From: an uncultured Mucispirillum sp.
GTDB lineage: Bacteria > Chrysiogenota > Deferribacteres > Deferribacterales > Mucispirillaceae
Reading direction: 5' to 3'
NCBI GenBank assembly: GCA_944326705.1
Contig: CALVEY010000015.1
Location: forward strand, 1 to 56,566
DNA: 56,566 nucleotides
The notes below the pieces were generated by a model. That model worked only from the letters and a program-made list of their open reading frames with translations. It did not search any database and was not told the DNA's origin. Positions within the stretch are counted from its first letter, which is position 1, and every line of letters begins with the position of its first letter. A program made the translations under genes and the position numbers. Of this stretch, positions 2,150 to 41,813 are shown piece after piece.

Positions 2150-4693
2150 ATGGAAAGACCAAAAAATGTTACGCCGGCAATGGCGCAGTTTTATGATATA
2201 AAAGAGCAGTATCCAGATTCTATTCTTTTTTTCCGTATGGGTGATTTTTATGAAATGTTTGGAGATGATGCTCTTACGGCTTCTAAAATATTAGGTATTG
2301 CTCTTACCTGCCGTAATAAATCATCAGAAAATCAGATACCTTTATGCGGCATACCTTACCATTCTTATATGCCATACCTTGTAAAGCTTTTAAAGGCAGG
2401 AAAAAAAGTGGCAATATGTGAGCAGTTAGAAGACCCTAAAATGGTTAAAGGTGTTGTAAAAAGAGGTGTTACTAGAGTTGTTACTCCTGCAACAGCAATA
2501 GAAGATGAAGCAGTTGTTACTTTTGATAATAACTTTTTAGTAAGCCTTTATGCTGAACTTGATAAAGTATATGCAGCGGCAGTTGATGTAACTACTGGCG
2601 AAACTTATTTAAAAACTATACCAGTAGATACTTTAGAAGAAAATACTTATTCAATGGAAGCAAAGGAAGTTATTGCAAATATTGATATAGATATAAATAA
2701 TATACCTGTAACTATAAGAAATCCTGGAAAACATTATAACACAGCATTAAACAGAGTGCTTACCCATTATTCTGTTACAAGTGAAAAAGCATTATTTATT
2801 GAAGATAAAGGCTATATCTGGGCGCTTGCTATGATACTAGATTATCTTGATGACTTAATACTTACCACAAAGCTTATGCTGCCTGTTACATTAAATGATA
2901 CTGATAACTTAATAATAGACAGTGTTGCTTCTTCCACATTAGAGCTTACAAACTCTACTGCAGGAAAAGATAATACATTATTTTACATTCTTAACCAGAC
3001 ATCAACGCCTATGGGTGCAAGGTTTTTAAAAAATACAATCACAAGACCTTTAAGAAATGCTGCTCAGATTAATACAAGGCTTGATATAGTAGAATACTTT
3101 ATAAATAATCCGTCATTTTTAAGCACAGTTAATGGTCTTTTATCTAATATATTTGATATAGAGCGTATTACATCAAGACTTATTTCTGGCAGGGCTACAC
3201 CAAAAGATTTAATATGGCTTAAATTATCTATTAAAAATATTCCAGAGCTTGATGCTATGCTTCAGTCTGTGCCAGATATTTTTGCAAAGTATAAGCTTGA
3301 TTCTCAGGAAGAACTTTATTTTTTAATTGAAAAATCAATAAATGATGAGCCCCCTGCAGCTATTAAAGAAGGCGGTATTATAAAAAGCGGATATAACAGC
3401 CATGTAGATGAGCTTAGAGATATTAAGCATAACGGCAAATCGTTAATATTAGAGATAGAAGAAAGAGAAAGGAAAGCAACAGGCATAAGTCAGCTGAAAA
3501 TTGGCTATAACAAAGTGTTTGGATATTATTTTGAAGTTTCAAGGATAAATGCTCCAAAAATGCCGTCATACTTTGAAAGAAAGCAGACTCTTGCAAACAG
3601 TGAGCGTTTTATTACAGAAGAATTAAGAGAGCTTGAAAATAAAATATTAAATGCAGAAGAAAAGCTTGCAGATATTGAATATTCTTTATTTCAGGATATA
3701 AGAAAGTATGCTTCAAGCAAGGCAGAAAATTTAAGGCAGCTTGCAAAACTTATTGCAGAGATTGATACTATTGCAGCTTTTGCAAATATAAGTATAAAAA
3801 ATAACTACAGCCGTCCAAAAATAGTAGAAAATGGTATAATAAATATAAAAGAAGGCAGACACCCTGTTGTAGAAAATAAAAGTAAAGATGCTTTTGTGCC
3901 AAATGATTTTTACTTAGATAACGACGAAAACAGGCTTTTAATTATAACAGGGCCTAATATGAGCGGTAAAAGTACATATCTTCGCTCCAGCGCATTAATT
4001 GCTGTTATGGCACACTGTGGCTGTTTTGTGCCTGCTGAAATGGCAGAAATACCACTGCTTGACAGGATTTTTACACGGGTTGGCGCAAGTGATAACCTTT
4101 CCCGCGGTGAATCTACTTTTATGGTGGAAATGGTAGAGACTGCCAATATTTTAAAAAATGCTACAAAAAATTCTCTTATTATACTTGATGAGATAGGCAG
4201 GGGCACATCTACTTTTGATGGTATTTCTATTGCCTGGGCAGTGGCAGAACATATATTAAATAATATTGGTGCAAAAACATTATTTGCTACCCATTATTTT
4301 GAGCTTACAGAAATAGGTGAAAAAGGCAAAGGTGCACAAAACTATACTGTAAGCGTAGAAGAATGGAATAATGAAGTAATATTTTTAAGAAAAGTTATAA
4401 AAGGCACAGCTGATAAAAGCTATGGTATATATGTAGGTAAAATGGCAGGACTTCCTGAAAGTGTAATAAAAAGAGCAAACGAAGTGCTTTCTGATTTAGA
4501 AAACCATGAAGATATTGCACTTATGCAGGAAAAAGAGCAGCCTAAGCATAAACAAAGATTTGTGCAGCCTATACTTGTTTTTGATGATTCTCACCCTGTA
4601 ATAGATGAGCTTAAATCTATGGATGTAGATAATATTACACCTATACAGGCTGTGCAGATTTTATCTGAATTAAAGAAAAAAGCACTTCAATAA
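2150..4693 (+). CDS. mutS: DNA mismatch repair protein MutS
   Basis: 847 residues, full length for MutS1. The N-terminal mismatch-binding domain has the Phe-x-Glu signature (GDFYEMFGDDA, near residue 35). The C-terminal ATPase carries Walker A GPNMSGKST (about 600-608) and Walker B LIILDEIGRGTSTFDG (about 675-690). It recognises mispairs and starts excision repair with MutL. It follows the lapB-like gene by 17 bases on the same strand. The state of mismatch repair matters here because it affects the slippage rate of the poly-C promoters elsewhere in the window. Confidence 0.97.
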   Translation: MERPKNVTPAMAQFYDIKEQYPDSILFFRMGDFYEMFGDDALTASKILGIALTCRNKSSENQIPLCGIPYHSYMPYLVKLLKAGKKVAICEQLEDPKMVKGVVKRGVTRVVTPATAIEDEAVVTFDNNFLVSLYAELDKVYAAAVDVTTGETYLKTIPVDTLEENTYSMEAKEVIANIDIDINNIPVTIRNPGKHYNTALNRVLTHYSVTSEKALFIEDKGYIWALAMILDYLDDLILTTKLMLPVTLNDTDNLIIDSVASSTLELTNSTAGKDNTLFYILNQTSTPMGARFLKNTITRPLRNAAQINTRLDIVEYFINNPSFLSTVNGLLSNIFDIERITSRLISGRATPKDLIWLKLSIKNIPELDAMLQSVPDIFAKYKLDSQEELYFLIEKSINDEPPAAIKEGGIIKSGYNSHVDELRDIKHNGKSLILEIEERERKATGISQLKIGYNKVFGYYFEVSRINAPKMPSYFERKQTLANSERFITEELRELENKILNAEEKLADIEYSLFQDIRKYASSKAENLRQLAKLIAEIDTIAAFANISIKNNYSRPKIVENGIINIKEGRHPVVENKSKDAFVPNDFYLDNDENRLLIITGPNMSGKSTYLRSSALIAVMAHCGCFVPAEMAEIPLLDRIFTRVGASDNLSRGESTFMVEMVETANILKNATKNSLIILDEIGRGTSTFDGISIAWAVAEHILNNIGAKTLFATHYFELTEIGEKGKGAQNYTVSVEEWNNEVIFLRKVIKGTADKSYGIYVGKMAGLPESVIKRANEVLSDLENHEDIALMQEKEQPKHKQRFVQPILVFDDSHPVIDELKSMDVDNITPIQAVQILSELKKKALQ

Positions 4694-32021: not shown

Positions 32022-33389
32022 TCACCACTCTATATTTTTCCCATATAAAAAATATCTGTCTAATTTATTTTTTAACATGTTGTCTACCTTTTTAGCATAG
32101 CCAACAGGGATATTATTAAAAAATAAAAGTTCGTTATTATAGTTATCATTACAGGATATGTCAAACCCTTTCAAAAAATTTTCTGCCAAATCTGCAGAAA
32201 TATTATATCTCATATTATTTTCTGTAAAAGAGCCCCACTGCCATACACTCTGGCATGACGGCTCATAAATTTTGCCAGTATCCTTGTAAAGATTTAAGCC
32301 CCGCCTTTTAAACTTAACTTTTTTAAATATTTCTGGGGCAGTTTCTATATAGCCCCGTCTGTCATATTCGCTGATTGATATATGGGAATAGGAAAAGGAT
32401 GGATAATATTTTTTAAAGAAATCTTTTTCCTTTTCCTTTAATTTAGAGTTTATAAAATTATAAGGAATAAATGTGCCCTTTTTACGAACTGCTGCTGCAA
32501 AAAAGCCATCTATTTTATCAGTATCCGGCATAATACGGGCAATATTTTCATCAATATGGCTTATTCCTGATAAGCCTTTGCCATAGTGACTGCCAGCAGG
32601 AAGAAGCTCTGCATTATCAAATTCATCAAGCAGATATTTTATAACATATTCGTTTTCTTCTAAACTTAAAGTGCAGGTAGAATATACTAATACTCCCCCT
32701 TCTTTTAAGCATAAAAAGGCTGATTTTATAAGCTGACGCTGTAAATCTGCCATTCTTTCTACAAGCTTTTTATTCCACTCTGCCTGCACAGTCTTATTAC
32801 GGAAAATTTTATTTTCATTAGAACACGGTGCATCAAGCAGAATACCGTCAAAAGAATTTTCAAAAATATTAGGTAAAAGCCTTCCGTCCATAGAAACAGT
32901 CTTTACATTATATGCTCCATATTTTTCTAAATTAAAATGAAGAGATTTTAAACGGCTTGCAGATATTTCATTGGCTACTATTATACCTTTCCTGTTACTC
33001 ATATCAGATAATGCACATGTTTTTCCGCCGGGAGCAGAAGATACATCAAGCATAACAGGGTTTTCTCCCATATAAGACATTAATATTTCAACTGGAGCAA
33101 TAGATGATGGGTTCATAATATATACTCCGCCTGTCTGAAAAGAAATACTCTCTACTATCTTATCAGCATTTTCCACTGCCTTATATATATTATCATATTC
33201 TTCAAGCTTTTCTAAAGTGCATATATTATTAAGTTCTAATAGATAATCAATATTTCTTGATGACTGCACACGAATATGGCGTGATTTTGGACATGAAAGA
33301 CCATATTCAAATTCATCATACTTATCTTTTAATAAAGGCTTATACTCTGCCCTGAATCGCTCTAACCAATTATTTTCCATAGCATACAC
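32022..33389 (-). CDS. RsmB/NOP-family rRNA m5C methyltransferase
   Basis: 455 residues (452 if the ATG at 33380 is used). It has the SAM-binding region GGKTCALSDMSNRKGIIVANE, the motif IV cysteine in LDAPCSNENK and the catalytic cysteine in VYSTCTLSLEENE. The order and the C-terminal PUA-like RNA-binding extension resemble RsmF/YebU. It methylates cytosine-5 in rRNA; the exact base is not deducible. It lies 41 bases downstream of the accessory operon and 7 bases upstream of the Csd6-like gene. Confidence 0.9.
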   Translation of the reverse strand: MYAMENNWLERFRAEYKPLLKDKYDEFEYGLSCPKSRHIRVQSSRNIDYLLELNNICTLEKLEEYDNIYKAVENADKIVESISFQTGGVYIMNPSSIAPVEILMSYMGENPVMLDVSSAPGGKTCALSDMSNRKGIIVANEISASRLKSLHFNLEKYGAYNVKTVSMDGRLLPNIFENSFDGILLDAPCSNENKIFRNKTVQAEWNKKLVERMADLQRQLIKSAFLCLKEGGVLVYSTCTLSLEENEYVIKYLLDEFDNAELLPAGSHYGKGLSGISHIDENIARIMPDTDKIDGFFAAAVRKKGTFIPYNFINSKLKEKEKDFFKKYYPSFSYSHISISEYDRRGYIETAPEIFKKVKFKRRGLNLYKDTGKIYEPSCQSVWQWGSFTENNMRYNISADLAENFLKGFDISCNDNYNNELLFFNNIPVGYAKKVDNMLKNKLDRYFLYGKNIEW

Positions 33390-33429
33390 AATATTAAATT
33401 AATAAAATTTATGCAAGGAAAAAAGTGAG

Positions 33430-35337
33430 TTAATATATAATGATTTTTCTATAATCATATAACCGTTTATAATCTAATGTTTTTTCTTGTATATATTTTT
33501 CATGATTACTAATTGTATCAAATATATGTTTTCCTATAGCTGCATTTTTTACGGAAAAACATTCTTTGCTTTTTTTTATCGCTTTTTTAGATTTACTTAT
33601 ATTACCCATTAAAAATTCATAAAGTGCAATTTCTCTCCATATTATATCGTTTGGATGTCCTTGTGCTGTTTCATTAAAATTATCAACCTGATACCTGATA
33701 ATACTATCTATTTCTATTTTATAATTAGTTAATTTTGTATTATTGACTGTTTTTAAAAACCAAAATAAATCAAATTTATCTAAAGTCTGAGTTGTTAAAT
33801 TTTCATAATCAGACAATATATACTCTAATGCTTTTTCAGGCTTCTCCCATTTCAAATACAACATTACTTTATAATTATGAAGCCTTCCAATATCTGATGA
33901 TAAAGTTAAATATCTTGCAACATTATCTAATGACTGCAATATTGCAGAAAATTCTTCATCTGTATTAGATGTAAAAATCAAACATTTTTGAAGTGTCATT
34001 ATAGAGCGTCTGTATATTTTAGAATAATTGAAGTCATCTATATTACCATTAGATAAAAGTTCCCATACTGTTCTATAATTTTCTATTAATGTATAATATT
34101 CTTTTGCTTTAATAGTTGCTTTTTCAAATTGTAGATCATTAATATAAGTTTCAATTTCATATAATTTATAATCTAAAATAAGTATAAAATATTCAGGATT
34201 GGAAGCTATTTTTGAGATATATTTTTCTTGCTCACCAATATAGATAAATGCATTTTCTGTATAACCTATATGATTACATACAAATAAAAGCATATTTTTT
34301 ATTCTAAATAATATATGTAAAAATTCTTTATAAGTTTTATTTTGTATTAATTCTTCCATTATATATGAAAGTAAACCTAACATTTGATATAAATCATCAA
34401 ATTTATCTATGTTTTTATAATTACGCCACAGTCTTTCTATTAATGCCTCAATTGTAGCTTTTGCTTTTAATGAACTTTTTTTATCTAAACTTTTTATTAA
34501 AATATTCTTTATAGATAATTTAATATTTTCACCAAATAACTCATTACTTTTACTTATTGAAAGAACTAAAAATCTATATAGTGCTAATACATAATCACCA
34601 TCTCTTTCTGCAATTTTTGCCTTGCGTAATTCATAATTTCCAAATGATTCAAATAATAAATATTTATTTTCTTTTTCAAGTGTTTTTAAATATCCTTTAG
34701 TATCTACATTATCAATATTATAAGTTAAATTAGCAATAAAATCAGCACAAACTAAACCCCACAAATCATTTGCATAGTGCAGCTCTATATTAATCTTATT
34801 ATTTAATAAATCTATAATACCACGAGCTGCAAGTCCTGCTTCAAAAGATAGCTTTAAATTATTTAACACATCTATTTTAATATCACTTACTGATGTCTGG
34901 CGTATTCCATCTATTGTTCTAGTTGCTACAATTAGGTCTAATCCATCAATTGTTGTATCATCTGGTATAACTGTTTCTATTAGAGCAAGTAAATCTGTCA
35001 TCATCAGTCTATAAGTCATTTCTCTTTCTGATAGTTTAGATTTAGTAAAATTGACAACAGAAATCATTGTATATTTCTTTTTTAATGTATCAAGATTACT
35101 TAAGATATTTTTTGCAATATATAATGCTTTTTCATGACCTAAATTAGCCCTAAATTCTGTCAAATGAAAATCTTTTATACTATCAAATCCTAATTTTTTT
35201 GGTATATGGCTATATATTTTTCTAAATTCCAAATCTATCTCTGCAAATTTTCCTTCAACTAGTAAACCAGATATAACCCATTTACCTTTTTTCGTTTCAA
35301 AATCACCAGATTCATCTATAAATAAAGTATAATACAT
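33430..35337 (-). CDS. DUF3800 protein with TPR-like C-terminal region
   Basis: 635 residues. The N-terminal 230 residues are DUF3800, with the acidic motif FIDESGDFE at 6-14 and the late WGLVCADFIANL motif. The fold is thought to be RNase H-like, so nuclease activity is plausible but unproven. The remaining 400 residues are helical, TPR-like repeats. The ATG overlaps the stop of the preceding nuclease gene by one base (TAATG), so it belongs to the same operon. Glutamine is almost always CAA, while core genes nearby favour CAG, supporting acquisition. It is probably the third component of the McrBC-like system. Confidence 0.8.
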   Translation of the reverse strand: MYYTLFIDESGDFETKKGKWVISGLLVEGKFAEIDLEFRKIYSHIPKKLGFDSIKDFHLTEFRANLGHEKALYIAKNILSNLDTLKKKYTMISVVNFTKSKLSEREMTYRLMMTDLLALIETVIPDDTTIDGLDLIVATRTIDGIRQTSVSDIKIDVLNNLKLSFEAGLAARGIIDLLNNKINIELHYANDLWGLVCADFIANLTYNIDNVDTKGYLKTLEKENKYLLFESFGNYELRKAKIAERDGDYVLALYRFLVLSISKSNELFGENIKLSIKNILIKSLDKKSSLKAKATIEALIERLWRNYKNIDKFDDLYQMLGLLSYIMEELIQNKTYKEFLHILFRIKNMLLFVCNHIGYTENAFIYIGEQEKYISKIASNPEYFILILDYKLYEIETYINDLQFEKATIKAKEYYTLIENYRTVWELLSNGNIDDFNYSKIYRRSIMTLQKCLIFTSNTDEEFSAILQSLDNVARYLTLSSDIGRLHNYKVMLYLKWEKPEKALEYILSDYENLTTQTLDKFDLFWFLKTVNNTKLTNYKIEIDSIIRYQVDNFNETAQGHPNDIIWREIALYEFLMGNISKSKKAIKKSKECFSVKNAAIGKHIFDTISNHEKYIQEKTLDYKRLYDYRKIIIY

Positions 35338-38009
35338 TAAAATTTCCTTAAATAATTAGTAGATTTATTTTGTTTCATTTCATAATACTTATCAGATTGT
35401 TCTTTCGTAAAAAAAGAATTACAGTTAGGACATTTTATATTATATATACTATCTTCATTATTATTATGATAAGTCCAAAATACACCATTTTTTATGAGTT
35501 TAACCTTACATGAAAAACAGTTTGTATAGATTAAAATATTATTACAATATTGGCAATATTTATACTTGAAATCAGAGCTAATTTCGATATTAGAAGCACT
35601 CATGAAATTATTTTCAACTTTCTTTCTTCTATCTTCTAATGTTTCAATATTTACATTACCACATGAAAGACATATCCAACGCTCAGGAATCTTTTTTGAA
35701 ATAGTATAAACATAATATTGTATACACATCCCTAAAAATCTTTGCATCATTGTTTGATATGAATAATTTTTAGGATTAATCACAATAGCTCCATACCTAT
35801 GATTTGCCATTATATCATCATATTCTTTGATACGTAATTCTTCAACTTCTTTTTTGCTATCAAATAATACACCCTCACCATAATATGAATACTTACCCCA
35901 TTTTTGGTTATTTATAACAATTCTTTCTCTAGATAAAGCATTAAAATCTGGATGTAAAATAAAAACTTTATTATAATAGTCTGTTTCATCATCTATATGC
36001 TTTTTATGAATATTATTATCTTTAAAATAATATTCATAAAAAGCATCATAATCTTTATCTTCTTGAAAAAAAGATACTTTACGTCCTGCGTAATCTTTTG
36101 AATAATATAATAGCCTTATAAGATATTTAATATCTGCTTCTTCATGAAATTTAGAATCTAATATTATTTGGTATGGAGCAATATTTTTATATACTATTTC
36201 TAAAATTATATCTGGACATTTTTTAGTTACTAATTCTTTTTCATACCATATATTTATATTACACTCTAATTCATCATTAATCAATTCAACTAATGTATTT
36301 TTTGATTTATCAGATAAAATGTTTTCTAATAATATATTTATCCAATTATTCTCTTTAGGTTTAAAATGGTAATACTGAATCAATATATTTATTACTATTA
36401 TAAAACACCATCTTTCATATAATTTAGGCATATCTATTACTGTAATATTTTGCTCAAAATACTGTATTAAACTAAGCTGTTTAATATCAATATTTTGGAT
36501 ATTAAGAAGTAATTTAAACATGGTAAATGTATTAGTATAAAAATAGTTTTGTACAAAAGTCATTGAGTTAGGAAAAATAGATGATGGACTAATTTTTAAT
36601 CGTTTAAATTGTTTATCCAAGTTTAACATCTTATTAGACAACTTTAATAGATCATTTTCATTTAACAACTTACTATATTCATTATACATTTTTTGATAAT
36701 TTTTTTTCATTATTTCAGATTCTTTTTTTAAATATTTTACTGCCTCTCTATCCTGTTTACTATTAAGGTCTATATTTCTCTGCCAATCATTTTTTTCATA
36801 TTCTTCAGCTTTAATTTTATACTCTTCAATTTTATCATTATAACTTAACGGTATGATAGATATAATATCTGATATTTTATAAGGAATAGTATAATTAATT
36901 TCTGCATTAATTATAAACCATTCATTCATCATTTTTATTTTTTCACATAAATCTTGATACTGTATAGGTATATTTATATAACAACAATATTTGTTTAGTT
37001 TCTTTACTCCACCAAAAGACATATCTATAGCACATTTAAATTTTATATATTGTTTGCTACTTTCCTTTTCTATAGCTATTTTTTTTATTTTATAAAAATG
37101 TCCTTCTTTTAAAATTATACCATTCATCACCTTAATTTGCTTGACTTGTTCAATACTTGAATATATGATTTGAAAATCTTTATAAATAGGCACAGATAGA
37201 TTAATAAAAGAATATTTTTCCGAAAATAACTGTGGTTCTTCACATATAATACTATACTTTCCTAAATTTTTATTTTTAAGGTTCTTACTTAATTTTTCAT
37301 TATATATTCTATATACTATATTATTTTTTTGATTTCCCATAATCGTATCAAAATATTTGTCCCCGTTATTGTCTCCTATATATCGAATATCAATTGTATA
37401 TTTATTACATTGAGATAATTTTGATTTATCCCCAGTCATTTTTTTAAGCAATTCATCTCTTTCATTAATTAAAAGTTGAGTATCACGATAAAATATATCT
37501 TTATTAACCTGTACTTTATTACTTCTTAAAACCTCATTTATCTCTTCCATTTGATTTTTGAATTCACTTATTTTTTTATTTGTAGATACTCGTATATATT
37601 TTTGATAATTAATATTGTTAGACAAAATATATTTAATACAATCAAAAGTCCAATATATATATTGATTATCTGGTATATCATAATTTTCTACTTTTGATTT
37701 ACTTGTGTAATATTGTTTACTAGGGTCTGATATGTATTCTATAAATGTTTTTGTTGTAGGTGCTATTTTTTTTATATTTTCTTTTATAAAATATTCTTTT
37801 AATATTACTTTGGGTTGCTTTAGAATTTTATCTATATTATTAAGATATTCTTCCAATACTTTTTTATATTGTTCAGTAATACCTATGGTAGTAGCTTTTA
37901 TTTTCATATTAGAATATGAATTTTTACTATAAATTAGTTTCCAAAGTTCATTTTTAAAATCATCAAGCATAATACTTACATCTTCTTGACTTAAACTAAT
38001 ATTTTTCAC
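35337..38009 (-). CDS. DUF2357 / PD-(D/E)XK nuclease (McrC-like), main part
   Basis: 890 residues from a weak GTG at 38009 with no ribosome site. The same frame is open without ATG or TTG up to 38149, directly after the 80-codon frame at 38147-38389. The true N-terminus is therefore probably that upstream frame joined by a -1 shift (about 1017 residues in total). Residues 85-130 match the DUF2357 pattern (SKVENYDIPDNQYIYW). A coiled coil is near 400-470. The nuclease core is CPDIILEI (about 598-605) and IILDSKF (about 615-621). The C-terminus has three CxxC knuckles (about 770-865). It is the likely DNA- or RNA-cutting partner of the AAA+ protein encoded upstream. Confidence 0.82.
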   Translation of the reverse strand: MKNISLSQEDVSIMLDDFKNELWKLIYSKNSYSNMKIKATTIGITEQYKKVLEEYLNNIDKILKQPKVILKEYFIKENIKKIAPTTKTFIEYISDPSKQYYTSKSKVENYDIPDNQYIYWTFDCIKYILSNNINYQKYIRVSTNKKISEFKNQMEEINEVLRSNKVQVNKDIFYRDTQLLINERDELLKKMTGDKSKLSQCNKYTIDIRYIGDNNGDKYFDTIMGNQKNNIVYRIYNEKLSKNLKNKNLGKYSIICEEPQLFSEKYSFINLSVPIYKDFQIIYSSIEQVKQIKVMNGIILKEGHFYKIKKIAIEKESSKQYIKFKCAIDMSFGGVKKLNKYCCYINIPIQYQDLCEKIKMMNEWFIINAEINYTIPYKISDIISIIPLSYNDKIEEYKIKAEEYEKNDWQRNIDLNSKQDREAVKYLKKESEIMKKNYQKMYNEYSKLLNENDLLKLSNKMLNLDKQFKRLKISPSSIFPNSMTFVQNYFYTNTFTMFKLLLNIQNIDIKQLSLIQYFEQNITVIDMPKLYERWCFIIVINILIQYYHFKPKENNWINILLENILSDKSKNTLVELINDELECNINIWYEKELVTKKCPDIILEIVYKNIAPYQIILDSKFHEEADIKYLIRLLYYSKDYAGRKVSFFQEDKDYDAFYEYYFKDNNIHKKHIDDETDYYNKVFILHPDFNALSRERIVINNQKWGKYSYYGEGVLFDSKKEVEELRIKEYDDIMANHRYGAIVINPKNYSYQTMMQRFLGMCIQYYVYTISKKIPERWICLSCGNVNIETLEDRRKKVENNFMSASNIEISSDFKYKYCQYCNNILIYTNCFSCKVKLIKNGVFWTYHNNNEDSIYNIKCPNCNSFFTKEQSDKYYEMKQNKSTNYLRKF

Positions 38010-38146
38010 ATTAATATCTACTAAAATATCACCAAAATATATTTTAGCATCACCTATATGATTGATAAATAATGACTCATAATATTTCCCTTTTTTATTC
38101 CACTTATTGTTTTCTACCCACCATATCTTATTTGTAACAGGATCTA

Positions 38147-38389
38147 TTATTTTTTTAACACTTTCTTTCTGCCATTATTTAATAATATAACTGGAATAAT
38201 ATTATCATCATCTAGTTGAAAAGCAATTTGTGCATATAAATTATCAATCTTTGTGTATGTATATAACTGAAGAAAATATGCATTATCATCTATATATTCT
38301 AACTTTTCTGATAAAAAATTTTCTTTTACTTCTTCTATTTCATTTTCATTTTTCCATTTTATATTCAAATATTTGGCTTCAATATTCAT
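38147..38389 (-). CDS. N-terminal part of the McrC-like nuclease, ending at an A7 frameshift site
   Basis: 80 codons starting at ATG 38389, 2 bases after the stop of the McrB-like gene. The peptide (MNIEAKYLNIKWKNENEIEE...) continues in character into the -1 frame (IIDPVTNKIWWVENNKWN) that leads into the 890-residue nuclease. Reading stops at TAA 38149-38147, immediately after A AAA AAA. I read it as one gene interrupted by a frameshift: programmed, phase-variable, a mutation or a sequencing error. Alternatively it is a free small subunit. Confidence 0.65.
   Translation of the reverse strand: MNIEAKYLNIKWKNENEIEEVKENFLSEKLEYIDDNAYFLQLYTYTKIDNLYAQIAFQLDDDNIIPVILLNNGRKKVLKK
38150..38156 (-). 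other. A7 slippery site before in-frame stop
   Basis: Minus-strand reading is GTG TTA AAA AAA TAA. The heptamer A AAA AAA is in the correct phase for -1 slippage of the dnaX type, and the -1 frame reads ATA ATA GAT into the nuclease. A homopolymer of this size can also vary by replication slippage. Confidence 0.6.
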
Positions 38390-38391
38390 TT

Positions 38392-40569
38392 TTATGCCCA
38401 GTAGTTAACTATATCTTGATTATTTTTTGCTCTACTGATTACATCTACTAATTCATCAATTACATCTTTATACTGATTATCTTCCTGACTTAAAATAGTC
38501 TTCAATTCTTGCAGCATATTTTCCAGCAGCATTATTTTAGTTGTTTTATCATCTATTTTTTTGTTACCATCAAATGTAAGTTTAGGAAGTATTTTATGTA
38601 TAATATAATTATTTAAAATAAGATATTTATCTATATTTAGTTCATGACATATGTTATTATAATTCATACCCTGCCTGATAGTTCTAAAACTAAATTCTAC
38701 ACCCATAGGCAGTAAATATTTCTCTACAAGAATAAGTATATTATTAACAAATTCATCATCTTTTCGAAACTCTGGATATTCTTTTCTTATGCCTAACTGT
38801 ATAGGTGTAAGTTTTATTTTTTTATCAATATATTTATACTCTGTATCTACACCATAATCTTTATTAAGACTTAAAAAAGGACTTTTAAATCTTATAATAT
38901 GTGCCCTATCCAATATTTTTGGTGATAAATAGTTTGTTGTTTCATCTATATTTATTGCTCCAAAAAATCTTACATTATTTGGTATTTCAATTTTAGGCTG
39001 TATAGTAAATGCATTATTTAAAATATTTCTCAGATGAATGTAATAAGAGATTAATGACTCTTTTTCAGTTAAACCAAAAACCTTTCTTATTTCATTATTT
39101 AAATCATCATCCTGCATCATATCAAGATATGAATAATCGCTGCCTTTATCTGTTTTATTTGTTATATATTCTAAAATATCTATAAAACTATAAATTTCTT
39201 TTAAATTATTTTTACTTTCATTATCACTATACAATTGTATTTCTATATTTTTTGTCCGCTCTTCTAATAGTGATAAAAAGTCTGCAAAATAATACTCAAC
39301 CCTTGCAAGATTCATTTCATCTAAACAAATAAAATAAGGAATATCTGGATTTTCAATAGCTTCTCTTATAGCTTCTGTAAATTCAGTAGATAAAAAGCGT
39401 TTTTCAATTGGATTATAATACCCTAACAAATCCTCAGAACCTGTCCAGTTTGGTTTAACAGGAATAATTTTAGCAATTCCACCAATTGCATCTGCAAAAT
39501 ATTTAACAAGACTAGTTTTTCCAGTTCCAGAATCACCTGCTAATACAATAAAATCATTAGTTTGTAATAATGCATAGAAATCCATTAATAACTCTTTTTC
39601 ATACATTATTCCTTTTTTATATAAATATGCTTGTATATGATTTATAAGCTTATCAGGATTATTTTCTATATCATCATAAGTTATATAAGTTCCTTCTTCT
39701 AAAGTATATTTTTTTTCTACACCTGTTAACTGTTTAAATTTATCATCATCTAAAAGACCAAGCTGTAAAAGTTTATTTGCTTTTTTCTGCAATTCTTTTG
39801 CTATTTCTTTATCCATATTATCCCTCAATTCTATAAGCCTTTCTATTTCATTTTTACAATCTTCAATATTATGAATAAGCTCTTCTAAATTACTATTTTT
39901 TTCTTGAATATCATTTAAAAGGATTTGATGCTGCTCTTCTGTTTCCTCTACAACCTTTTCTAAATCATTTAATTTCTCTTTATTAGCATTAATTCCATTT
40001 TCTATTTCTTGGCTATTTTCTTTAATAACTGATTCAACAATAGATTTTGTTATTAAAATATTACCCTCACTATCTTTGTATAATTCAATATCTTCCATAC
40101 TTTTCAACTCTCTATATGAATCCACCTGTAACTGCAATGGGTTAAGATGTTTTTCCCTTTCATAGGTTGGTGAAAATGATAATATCATTAAAAATATACC
40201 ATTTTCTGCTTTATATTTGATAATATTATATTTATCTGGTGCAAGAAATATACTTTGAGCTTCCGCAGTTAATCCTGTTAAAGGATAAGATAATTCATTA
40301 CCAAAATACGGATGATAAAACTTATTAATCCATACAGAATTATCTAGCACTAGAATATCCCTATAATACACAACGACAAAGATTTTGTTGAAAGGCATTT
40401 TCCAATGGATACTGATATATTTCTTCAAAAACCCATCATTAAAAACAACTTGATTATCTTTTTTTATAAATCCACCAGAATCTCTGTCCAAAATATCATA
40501 AACATCTTTTATATCAAACTGCCCATTTGTTTCTGACATATTTATTCCATATTTATTTAATAATTCCAT
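38392..40569 (-). CDS. McrB-like AAA+ ATPase with N-terminal domain and long coiled coil
   Basis: 725 residues. An N-terminal beta-rich domain of unknown type (1-175) is followed by a coiled coil (about 180-265, heptads rich in Glu, Leu, Asn and Lys) and a McrB-family AAA+ domain. Walker A is LAGDSGTGKT (343-352). Walker B FICLDEMNLARVEYYFADFL (413-432) is the McrB-type block. The sensor-like GAINIDETTNYL (about 538-549) replaces the MNTAD nucleotide motif of E. coli McrB, so GTP specificity is uncertain. It is likely the motor that loads the downstream nuclease. It has no ribosome site; a TATAAT lies 8 bases from the ATG. Confidence 0.88.
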   Translation of the reverse strand: MELLNKYGINMSETNGQFDIKDVYDILDRDSGGFIKKDNQVVFNDGFLKKYISIHWKMPFNKIFVVVYYRDILVLDNSVWINKFYHPYFGNELSYPLTGLTAEAQSIFLAPDKYNIIKYKAENGIFLMILSFSPTYEREKHLNPLQLQVDSYRELKSMEDIELYKDSEGNILITKSIVESVIKENSQEIENGINANKEKLNDLEKVVEETEEQHQILLNDIQEKNSNLEELIHNIEDCKNEIERLIELRDNMDKEIAKELQKKANKLLQLGLLDDDKFKQLTGVEKKYTLEEGTYITYDDIENNPDKLINHIQAYLYKKGIMYEKELLMDFYALLQTNDFIVLAGDSGTGKTSLVKYFADAIGGIAKIIPVKPNWTGSEDLLGYYNPIEKRFLSTEFTEAIREAIENPDIPYFICLDEMNLARVEYYFADFLSLLEERTKNIEIQLYSDNESKNNLKEIYSFIDILEYITNKTDKGSDYSYLDMMQDDDLNNEIRKVFGLTEKESLISYYIHLRNILNNAFTIQPKIEIPNNVRFFGAINIDETTNYLSPKILDRAHIIRFKSPFLSLNKDYGVDTEYKYIDKKIKLTPIQLGIRKEYPEFRKDDEFVNNILILVEKYLLPMGVEFSFRTIRQGMNYNNICHELNIDKYLILNNYIIHKILPKLTFDGNKKIDDKTTKIMLLENMLQELKTILSQEDNQYKDVIDELVDVISRAKNNQDIVNYWA

Positions 40570-40577
40570 AGTAACAT

Positions 40578-40583
40578 ATTATA
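40578..40583 (-). promoter_or_regulatory. -10 element of the McrBC-like operon, leaderless configuration
   Basis: TATAAT on the minus strand (40583-40578) ends 8 bases before the ATG at 40569. Transcription starting 6-8 bases after it would begin at the start codon. No clear -35 and no Shine-Dalgarno sequence are seen. Confidence 0.45.
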
Positions 40584-40640
40584 TTTATTTTTTCAATAAT
40601 GAATAATGTCATTAAATAAATACTTATCTAATTTATTCAT

Positions 40641-40667
40641 TTGACATTTCCTATCCTATATTATATT
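40641..40667 (+). promoter_or_regulatory. Probable dprA promoter
   Basis: TTGACA at 40641-40646 and TATATT at 40662-40667 have a 15-bp spacer. It sits in the 152-base gap between the divergent McrB-like and dprA genes. Its TTG is in frame with dprA but is not a start codon. Confidence 0.4.
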
Positions 40668-40721
40668 CTTTCATTTATTATTATTTTCAGGGAGCTTATT
40701 ATAGATACCATTTATGAATAT

Positions 40722-41813
40722 ATGGCGTTAAAGCATATTAAAGGGTTAAGTGATACTATCATTTCTTTAATTATGGAAAAACGTGGCACAATATCAGGAA
40801 TATTTAAAGAAAAGGCAGATTTCTTTTACGGCTCAAATATTCAAAGTGCTGTAGTTGATAGAATCCTTACAAAGTCTTTTAATGAACAGGCTGTTGAAAG
40901 CCAGATAAGGCGTGCAGAAGATGCTGGAATATCCATTATAACTTTAGAAGACGAAAGATACCCTAAAATGCTGAAAGAAGTATATGCGCCGCCTGCTCTG
41001 CTTTATGTGCTTGGAAACAGTGAATGTTTAAATAATATATGTGTAGGTATAGTAGGCTCTAGAAACTGCTCAAAAATGGCAGAAAATTTTGCATATAAAT
41101 TATCTAAAGAATTAGCAGAAGTAGGCATAACTGTTGTCAGCGGCTTTGCTTACGGTATAGACATTGCGTCCCATAAAGGTGCTGTTGATTATGGCGCAAC
41201 TGCCTGTGTATTAGGCAGCGGACTTGCAAATATATACCCTGCAGCTCATACTAAATATATTGATAAAATACTTGAAAAAGGCGGCTGTCTGATGAGTGAA
41301 TTTACTCTTGATGAAGCACCGCTGCCGCAAAACTTCCCTAGAAGAAACAGAATAATATCAGGGCTTTCAAAAGCTATTGCAGTTATTGAAGCAGGATATA
41401 AAAGCGGTTCTTTAATTACATGTCGCTTTGCATTAGAACAAAACAGAGAGATTTTTGCAGTGCCTGCATTTCCTGGCGGTAGAAATAGTGCAACAAACTC
41501 TCTTCTAAGGCAGGGAGCAAAATTTTTAGAATCATCTCTTGACATAATCTCTGATTTACAATATGACTTAAAAATTAAGTTAAATGAAAATAATAGCGAA
41601 ATTGTTGAGAACAGCATAAAATCTCTTGAAATTGAAGATGAAACAGGGCAGAAGATATATGACGCTTTATCTATAGAGCCTTTATCGTTAAATAATATAT
41701 GTTTAAAACTAAATATTGATGTGGTTTCTGCTATGAATGCCATAGCCTGCCTTGAGCTTGACGGCATAATAGAAAAAGCACAAGATGAAAAATATATAAT
41801 TAAAATAATATAG
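40722..41813 (+). CDS. dprA: DNA processing protein DprA (Smf)
   Basis: 363 residues from the ATG at 40722. The frame is open further upstream, and GGGAG at about 40690 could serve a non-ATG start nearer 40697, so the first residues are uncertain. The Rossmann domain has GIVGSRNCSKMAEN, VVSGFAYGIDIASHKGA, LGSGLANIYPAAH, FPRRNRIISGLSKA and EAGYKSGSLITCRFALE. A C-terminal winged-helix (DML1-like) domain follows. DprA loads RecA on single strands during natural transformation. It is the first gene of the dprA-topA-trmFO-xerC block. Confidence 0.94.
   Translation: MALKHIKGLSDTIISLIMEKRGTISGIFKEKADFFYGSNIQSAVVDRILTKSFNEQAVESQIRRAEDAGISIITLEDERYPKMLKEVYAPPALLYVLGNSECLNNICVGIVGSRNCSKMAENFAYKLSKELAEVGITVVSGFAYGIDIASHKGAVDYGATACVLGSGLANIYPAAHTKYIDKILEKGGCLMSEFTLDEAPLPQNFPRRNRIISGLSKAIAVIEAGYKSGSLITCRFALEQNREIFAVPAFPGGRNSATNSLLRQGAKFLESSLDIISDLQYDLKIKLNENNSEIVENSIKSLEIEDETGQKIYDALSIEPLSLNNICLKLNIDVVSAMNAIACLELDGIIEKAQDEKYIIKII

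Follow-up and report, generated by a model that had tools for sequence, protein, structure and literature searches.

A 56,566-nucleotide contig of an uncultured Mucispirillum sp. (CALVEY010000015.1; this whole stretch is called the window) carries a minus-strand operon related to the McrBC restriction systems. The operon encodes a coiled-coil AAA+ motor (CnuB), a nuclease (CnuC) and a third protein that joins a DUF3800-like domain to TPR-like repeats. With moderate confidence, we read the operon as a CoCoNuT core (CnuB-CnuC) that resembles Type I-A, was acquired horizontally and is accompanied by a co-inherited third subunit. This subunit would be a DUF3800 nuclease with an RNase H fold, docked on CnuBC by its repeats and cutting RNA or RNA-DNA hybrids, and CnuC would cut with its own motif.

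Domain composition of the three proteins

The third protein (635 aa) was analyzed by AlphaFold2 (AF2) modeling. The model (pLDDT, the predicted local distance difference test score, 84.5) shows an alpha/beta domain up to about residue 230 and helical repeats after it. Performing a structure search, we find that the repeats match TPR proteins, namely MalT domain III (Z 17.8, root-mean-square deviation (rmsd) 4.7 over 303), APPBP2, Rap and LGN. An earlier note, made from the sequence alone, had named the protein a fusion of DUF3800 and helical repeats. The repeats are borne out by these matches. The DUF3800 part falls under the Pfam cut-off, as the window protein scores 13.2 bits against PF12686 (cut-off 21) and its relatives score 15.7 or nothing at all. 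Profile comparison recovers the relationship. Aligned by hhalign with 11 canonical DUF3800 proteins (from 21 loci), the domain reaches a probability of 95.4% over 190 columns, compared with 0.2-0.3% for the controls. A hidden Markov model of the same 11 proteins matches the homologues from loci L091, L096 and L089 at 1.5e-6 to 2.8e-4. At the level of sequence, these results support the window domain as kin of DUF3800 that lies below Pfam filing. Among PDB sequences, the profile of the domain had no match below E 0.2, and the third protein has no PADLOC match.

The elements of the modeled domain follow the order beta1-beta2-helices-beta3-alpha-beta4-alpha-beta5-alpha, which fits the RNase H order with extra helices after beta2. 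In nucleases of that fold, the catalytic acids sit on beta1, the first core helix, beta4 and the last helix. Residues D8, E106, D134 and D199 are kept in 11, 11, 10 and 11 of 11 homologues, respectively, and stand at what we take to be the positions of the RNase HI catalytic acids. By AF2, a published study assigned DUF3800 to the RNase H fold, catalytically rearranged, and located TPR+DUF3800 proteins beside a sub-branch of Cas12a2 (PMC10910872). A 2025 classification likewise counts DUF3800, which it records in some VI-F and V-A2 loci, among the nucleases of RNase H fold (PMC12669027).

The 725-aa CnuB matches the PADLOC model PDC-M26A (E 1.6e-198) and the Pfam family AAA_5 (5.6e-9). Its landmarks are Walker A at residues ~345-352, Walker B at 412-420 and NxD at 540-542. 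The NxD motif reads NID in the window, and its N and D are invariant in 34/34 aligned rows. Walker B and NxD are 104 residues apart in the window, 91-104 in 28 rows and 65-86 in six distant rows, as counted on a sequence alignment with helicity not modeled. A coiled coil is predicted from the sequence at ~175-266, ahead of the nucleoside triphosphatase (NTPase) domain. A heptad test gave a best a/d hydrophobic fraction of 0.67 over 63 aa, which 20 of 2000 shuffles reached, and the coiled coil first proposed from the letters alone is thus supported. In locus L002 (G017:C115:17971-19470), from a genome in the same taxonomic order as the window, the CnuB homologue carries three internal stops; an ordinary DUF3800 lies elsewhere in that genome.

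The 890-aa frame of CnuC matches PDC-M26B (1.4e-88) and passes PF04411 with 24.7 bits (cut-off 22.1). The PD-(D/E)XK residues are present as YERW, PD and LDSK, and the catalytic YE, PD and DxK are retained in the alignment rows that bear DUF3800. There are four CxxC pairs, one of them a CPxC of the zinc ribbon type. The PD-(D/E)XK core claimed in the earlier note is thereby confirmed. Its DUF2357 assignment gets no Pfam call in the window nuclease; kinship to McrC is seen in the structure of a relative, as follows. The AF2 model of the CnuC of L028, a Spirochaetota relative (pLDDT 82.5), was used for a structure search. The top five matches were McrC chains (Z 11.0, 10.1, 10.0, 9.5 and 9.3; next 7.8), which fit with rmsd 6.9-13.6 over 169-285 residues. 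An OB-fold at 326-438 (Z up to 7.3) is inserted in this model with McrC matches on both sides, and long helices run at 248-326 and 456-506. An all-beta domain occupies residues 5-136. Aligned to the L028 model, the window CnuC appears to have the coiled coil and OB-fold inserted in its DUF2357-like part. The McrBC and CoCoNuT kinship suspected earlier is thus upheld by the PDC-M26A/B matches, the NxD motif and the five McrC chains.

According to the main text of the paper that describes it, a Type I-A CoCoNuT consists of McrB and McrC homologues (CnuB and CnuC) only (PMC11090510). Its published CnuB has a helical insert between Walker B and NxD and a CSD-like OB-fold at the N-terminus. The published CnuC has an immunoglobulin-like N-terminal domain, a coiled coil and an OB-fold in DUF2357, a PD-(D/E)XK domain and a zinc ribbon. 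The window system shares with it the coiled-coil NxD McrB motor, the adjacency of the two genes, and a CnuC with an N-terminal beta domain, an OB-fold and coiled coil in the DUF2357-like part, PD-(D/E)XK and CxxC pairs. Unlike Type I-A, the trio has a co-inherited DUF3800-TPR gene, and the word DUF3800 is absent from that paper's main text (PMC11090510). Because this conserved gene stands behind CnuC, we file the system as a variant and not as plain Type I-A.

The PADLOC candidate PDC-M26 is matched by adjacent M26A and M26B hits, the window nuclease being in two pieces; as far as the matches show, the candidate comprises two proteins in PADLOC-DB, whereas the trio has a third. In common with the E. 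coli and Thermococcus McrBC complexes (6hz4, 6ut5-6ut7, 7vsr), the trio has an AAA+ motor and a stalk-nuclease partner; in contrast to them, it has NxD in place of NxxD, a long coiled coil, an inserted OB-fold, a zinc ribbon and a third gene. DUF3800 with TPR-like repeats partners a defense nuclease here as it does beside the Cas12a2 sub-branch and in VI-F/V-A2 loci (PMC10910872, PMC12669027). The partner here is McrBC and not a CRISPR effector, and the likeness is one of domain make-up. In the open-access literature (supplements and subscription papers lay outside the search), we found no paper that joins DUF3800 to McrBC or CoCoNuT, and PDC-M26 was not found. Hence the CoCoNuT-like core is known, while DUF3800-TPR as a third, co-inherited partner looks undescribed so far.

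Distribution and co-inheritance of the third gene

We scanned one genome from each species, using three aligned CnuB proteins as the query, and analyzed the best 80 of 492 loci encoding a relative. By phmmer, 65 of the 80 loci have a nuclease homologue and 15 have none; 3 more end within 300 bases of the nuclease, and 62 are evaluable for the next gene. In 11 of the 62, from at least five phyla, CnuC is followed directly by a DUF3800-TPR homologue. These loci are L028 (Spirochaetota), L029 (Campylobacterota), L048, L086, L087, L089, L091 and L096 (Pseudomonadota), L068 (Thermodesulfobacteriota), L090 (Armatimonadota) and L088, drawn in the same phylum as L068. In 10 of the 11, the gene shares the strand of CnuC and either overlaps it or begins no more than 25 bases away; in L086, CnuC is broken. 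The DUF3800 profile alone, run on the genus of L091, was positive in 4 of 105 genomes and gave two new loci, both with CnuB, CnuC and DUF3800 in a row. The earlier proposal of a distinct DUF3800 variant therefore gains from the 11 loci and from the two found through DUF3800 alone.

Pairwise divergence of the DUF3800 protein follows that of CnuB (Mantel r 0.83, p 2e-4) and of CnuC (r 0.75, p 4e-4). Both values come from ten loci, among them partial DUF3800 proteins (L028, L088) and a CnuC fragment (L086); L087 and L096 were excluded as broken.

One may ask whether the DUF3800 gene is an unrelated passenger behind the pair. It is absent from 51 of the 62 evaluable loci, where the family and canonical DUF3800 profiles run over all frames added none behind CnuC, and from three plasmid loci examined. 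However, its close same-strand placement, the recovery of the trio by searching with the third gene alone and the correlated divergence speak against this idea. We rejected the passenger explanation on gene order, on the two extra loci and on divergence, and regard it as scarcely credible.

On the CnuB tree, the state of the third gene changes at least 4 times over 64 rows, compared with 10.4 in shuffles. These trees were quick and have long branches; the first was built without L105 (too short) and without L095 and L096 (too few columns). A single origin of the third gene in one CnuB clade was rejected by the approximately unbiased (AU) test (p 6e-58), on a tree from which 10 outgroup rows and 7 rows whose status was unknown had also been dropped. 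Taken together, these results suggest that the DUF3800 gene seems to be an old partner of CnuBC, several times lost or regained.

The third gene is rare in evenly drawn samples, where it was found in seed genomes only: 1/369 for the class of G391, 2/297 for the phylum of G387 and 1/249 for the phylum of G385. Among 384 relatives of the window, only the window's own genome and one weak, ordinary DUF3800 matched. The window DUF3800 protein had no match in plasmids or phages, the L089 homologue had none in plasmids, and 0 of 71 pattern matches to the third gene in viral_contigs were confirmed. CnuB-like proteins occur on 326 plasmids at E 1e-5, and 32 of them cover at least 80% of the query. Phage records gave two partial CnuB matches, and viral_contigs gave none. 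At gathering scores, neither the window nor any of the 11 DUF3800 loci showed a structured RNA associated with DUF3800, and a permissive scan of 32900-40900 returned one chance-level match only.

The neighborhoods of individual loci support a defense role. In Psychrobacter L091 (3362-21049), Type I restriction genes directly upstream, the trio, and Mokosh MkoA ~50 bases downstream lie in one row on one strand. In L089, a Type I restriction subunit is directly upstream of the trio, and an McrB-like restriction frame lies nearby in L096. In a PADLOC scan of 65 neighbor frames from eight loci, the first 25 of 117 families contained MkoA, PDC-S11 and the methylase and specificity subunits of Type I systems, at E <1e-20. 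When ten neighbors were scanned singly, 5 had no match at 1e-6. The role is thus argued from the context of single loci and not from a tally against random neighbors. Defense had been the earlier note's expectation, and L091, together with a methylase-McrBC system at the window's site in a same-genus genome (below), agrees with it. As a separate observation in L089 (5232-6476), PDC-M04A is itself a DUF3800 protein (PF12686, 50 bits); with PDC-M04B, it is placed just upstream of the Type I restriction subunit, close to the trio, so that this island has two DUF3800 proteins.

A second association was seen in L101 (488-8405). Here a 694-aa DUF3800-TPR-like protein and a 374-aa protein of unknown kind lie upstream of a divergent McrB/McrC pair. 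The 694-aa protein matches the DUF3800-TPR family (A2) profile at 1.5e-12 and the canonical DUF3800 profile at 3.7e-5. The pair has a coiled-coil NxD (NQD) McrB and an McrC with PD-(D/E)XK and a DUF2357 match just under the cut-off. Since L101 falls outside the trio branch on the CnuB tree and differs in gene order, the DUF3800 module appears to have joined coiled-coil NxD McrBC systems at least twice.

The interrupted nuclease gene and the proposed working of the trio

The window's own nuclease gene is in two pieces. An 80-aa frame ahead of the 890-aa frame aligns with the N-termini of the relatives' intact CnuCs and stops right after an A7 tract (Table 1). On this alignment, it is the 5′ piece of the nuclease gene and not a separate gene, so that the frame change cuts the N-terminal beta domain. 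A conserved WW..W stretch lies between the A7 tract and the GTG at 38009, in the frame of the 890-aa reading, with no usual start codon before that GTG, which is probably a non-native start of CnuC. In 56 of the 62 evaluable loci, CnuC is encoded in a single frame that reaches at least 780 aa. The intact CnuC is therefore the rule; in the window, the gene has been mutated or mis-assembled, or else it is read through slippage. CnuC is also in pieces in L096, L140, L054, L095 and L086, near short A runs in L096 and L140.

Because its nuclease gene is interrupted at the A7 tract, the window copy is probably silent or active only to the degree that slippage occurs. This limits what the operon of this genome can do. 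We give roughly even odds to the view that the operon here is a decaying remnant with an inactivated nuclease, of which only the gene layout is informative. The frame change with a stop directly behind it suggests so, as do the broken CnuCs of relatives (6 of 62 loci without a single frame of that length, and one extra Psychrobacter locus with CnuC split). On the other hand, the CnuB and DUF3800 frames are fully open, the catalytic motifs past the break are retained, and the A7 run may stem from misassembly or permit slippage. Decay would in any case bear on the window copy and not on the kind of system.

Programmed frameshifting that yields two nuclease forms on purpose is a quite improbable alternative. 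A AAA AAA, a known kind of slippery heptamer, stands directly before the stop. But an A7 run occurs at that place in 0 of 11 relatives (L030 and L094 have six A), and one long CnuC frame prevails among the loci. The island has 17 runs of at least 7 A on its coding strand, so a coincidence at this tract is cheap.

For the intact system, we propose the following working. CnuB would form rings stimulated by the CnuC stalk. The OB-fold inserted in CnuC would bind single-stranded nucleic acid of the invader, probably RNA or a displaced strand, and the PD-(D/E)XK domain of CnuC would cut. The DUF3800 protein would dock by its repeats and be a second nuclease, with RNA or RNA-DNA hybrids as its substrate. 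Sequences and models show which domains the proteins have, how the genes are ordered and co-inherited, that the block was inserted and that its context is of a defense type. We infer the assembly, the target, the order of the cuts and the anti-phage effect from the components, and RNA as a target is suggested by the OB-fold and by analogy. Several results weigh against this proposal. The best matches of the OB insert are single-stranded DNA-binding proteins (SSB). The structure search gave no RNase H match, the full-length model returning repeat proteins and weak viral matches; hence the fold assignment draws on topology, residues and the published DUF3800 work. Of the 62 evaluable CnuBC loci, 51 function, or at any rate persist, in the absence of the third gene, and the window's nuclease gene is broken.

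An unlikely but serious competitor, in our view, is a DNA-targeting Type IV restriction system like McrBC. In it, the DUF3800 protein would serve not as an effector but as a regulator or off-switch (e.g., degrading the trigger or limiting self-damage). Since the CnuC motif is intact in the DUF3800-bearing loci, no lost nuclease needs replacement there. The resemblance of the OB insert to single-stranded DNA-binding proteins fits DNA as a target, and the broken CnuCs of several loci hint at a toxic nuclease. However, the third gene is missing from most CnuBC loci, so DUF3800 is no obligatory antidote, and the family is described as a nuclease of interference modules (PMC10910872, PMC12669027). 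We keep the two-nuclease proposal in front.

RNA targeting by CoCoNuTs has been predicted and not shown. As the DUF3800 family is otherwise published beside RNA-linked CRISPR effectors, the DUF3800 partner would point independently to RNA or RNA-DNA hybrids. Tentatively, and with rather less confidence than in the two-nuclease proposal, DUF3800-TPR may be a portable nuclease module for unrelated RNA-sensing immunity. It would serve Cas12a2 and VI-F CRISPR, and also coiled-coil NxD McrBC systems in two branches or more (the trio, and L101 with the gene upstream). If true, the presence of DUF3800-TPR would mark RNA sensing, and CnuBC with DUF3800 would be an RNA-triggered two-nuclease defense. 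An accessory module common to CRISPR and McrBC-type immunity is suggested. The third gene also gives a simple test handle, with one removable gene and four acids to mutate, and the system occurs in nature both with two genes and with three, which allows a comparison.

Layout and insertion site of the operon

In the open-reading-frame listing, the block of four minus-strand frames spans exactly 33430-40569 and is transcribed in the order 725-aa AAA+ protein, 80-aa frame, 890-aa frame, 635-aa frame (Table 1). Between the CnuB stop and the start of the 80-aa frame lie 2 bases, and the nuclease stop and the DUF3800 start share TAATG. Of the earlier description as four overlapping or abutting frames, the coordinates and contacts are exact, with the correction that the 80-aa frame is no gene of its own. 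The block is AT-rich as described, with GC 0.22-0.26 inside the island against 0.32-0.34 in neighboring genes (two on the left, one on the right). The CAA bias for Gln holds over the four frames (49 CAA vs 26 CAG) and not in the AAA+ gene taken alone (10 CAA vs 13 CAG).

Table 1. Features of the operon, its island and the flanking genes (window coordinates)
Feature	Coordinates	Strand	Basis
CnuB/McrB-like coiled-coil AAA+ NTPase, 725 aa	38392..40569	-	PDC-M26A, AAA_5, motifs, heptads
5′ piece of CnuC/McrC-like nuclease gene, 80 codons, part of N-terminal beta domain	38147..38389	-	PDC-M26B positions 4-84 (8.2e-10); aligned with intact CnuC N-termini
A7 tract; 5′ piece ends just past it and homologous reading resumes in another frame	38150..38156	-	Frame comparison
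CnuC/McrC-like nuclease, main frame, 890 aa from GTG	35337..38009	-	PDC-M26B 1.4e-88; PF04411; motif table
Putative DUF3800 (RNase H-like) domain 1-~230 and TPR-like repeats ~235-635; 635 aa	33430..35337	-	AF2 model, TPR matches, profile match, conserved acids
Inserted island	33427..40629	.	blastn of G003 stretch vs window; 51 unaligned bases in G003
Left flank: RsmB/F-type rRNA methyltransferase, outside the system	32022..33389	-	Methyltr_RsmB-F 3.2e-46
Right flank: dprA, outside the system	40641..41813	+	DNA_processg_A 6e-70

The 7.2-kb block is an insertion that looks foreign and was probably acquired horizontally. In a same-genus genome (G003) whose flanks are 93-94% identical, blastn shows the site empty, with 51 unaligned bases in place of the island. 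The site could be judged in 5 of 9 other genomes of the genus; in the remaining four, the flanks were on separate contigs or had no match. The site, which lies between the rRNA methyltransferase gene and dprA, is without a large insert in G003 and G006. G007 has one small frame at the site, which we take to be antitoxin-like, and G001 has a pair of frames, by eye presumably antitoxin-like and toxin-like, both without a PADLOC match. In G005, the site holds 5 kb that encode two DNA methylases as well as an McrB/McrC-like pair with NxxD, which PADLOC names REase_II. The site thus looks like a turnover place for defense genes. In L124, an insert at the same site (methylases and an McrBC-like pair) has a 221-aa frame (2535-3200) between the methylases and the McrB-like gene; this frame, which has no PADLOC match, is by eye presumably homing-endonuclease-like.

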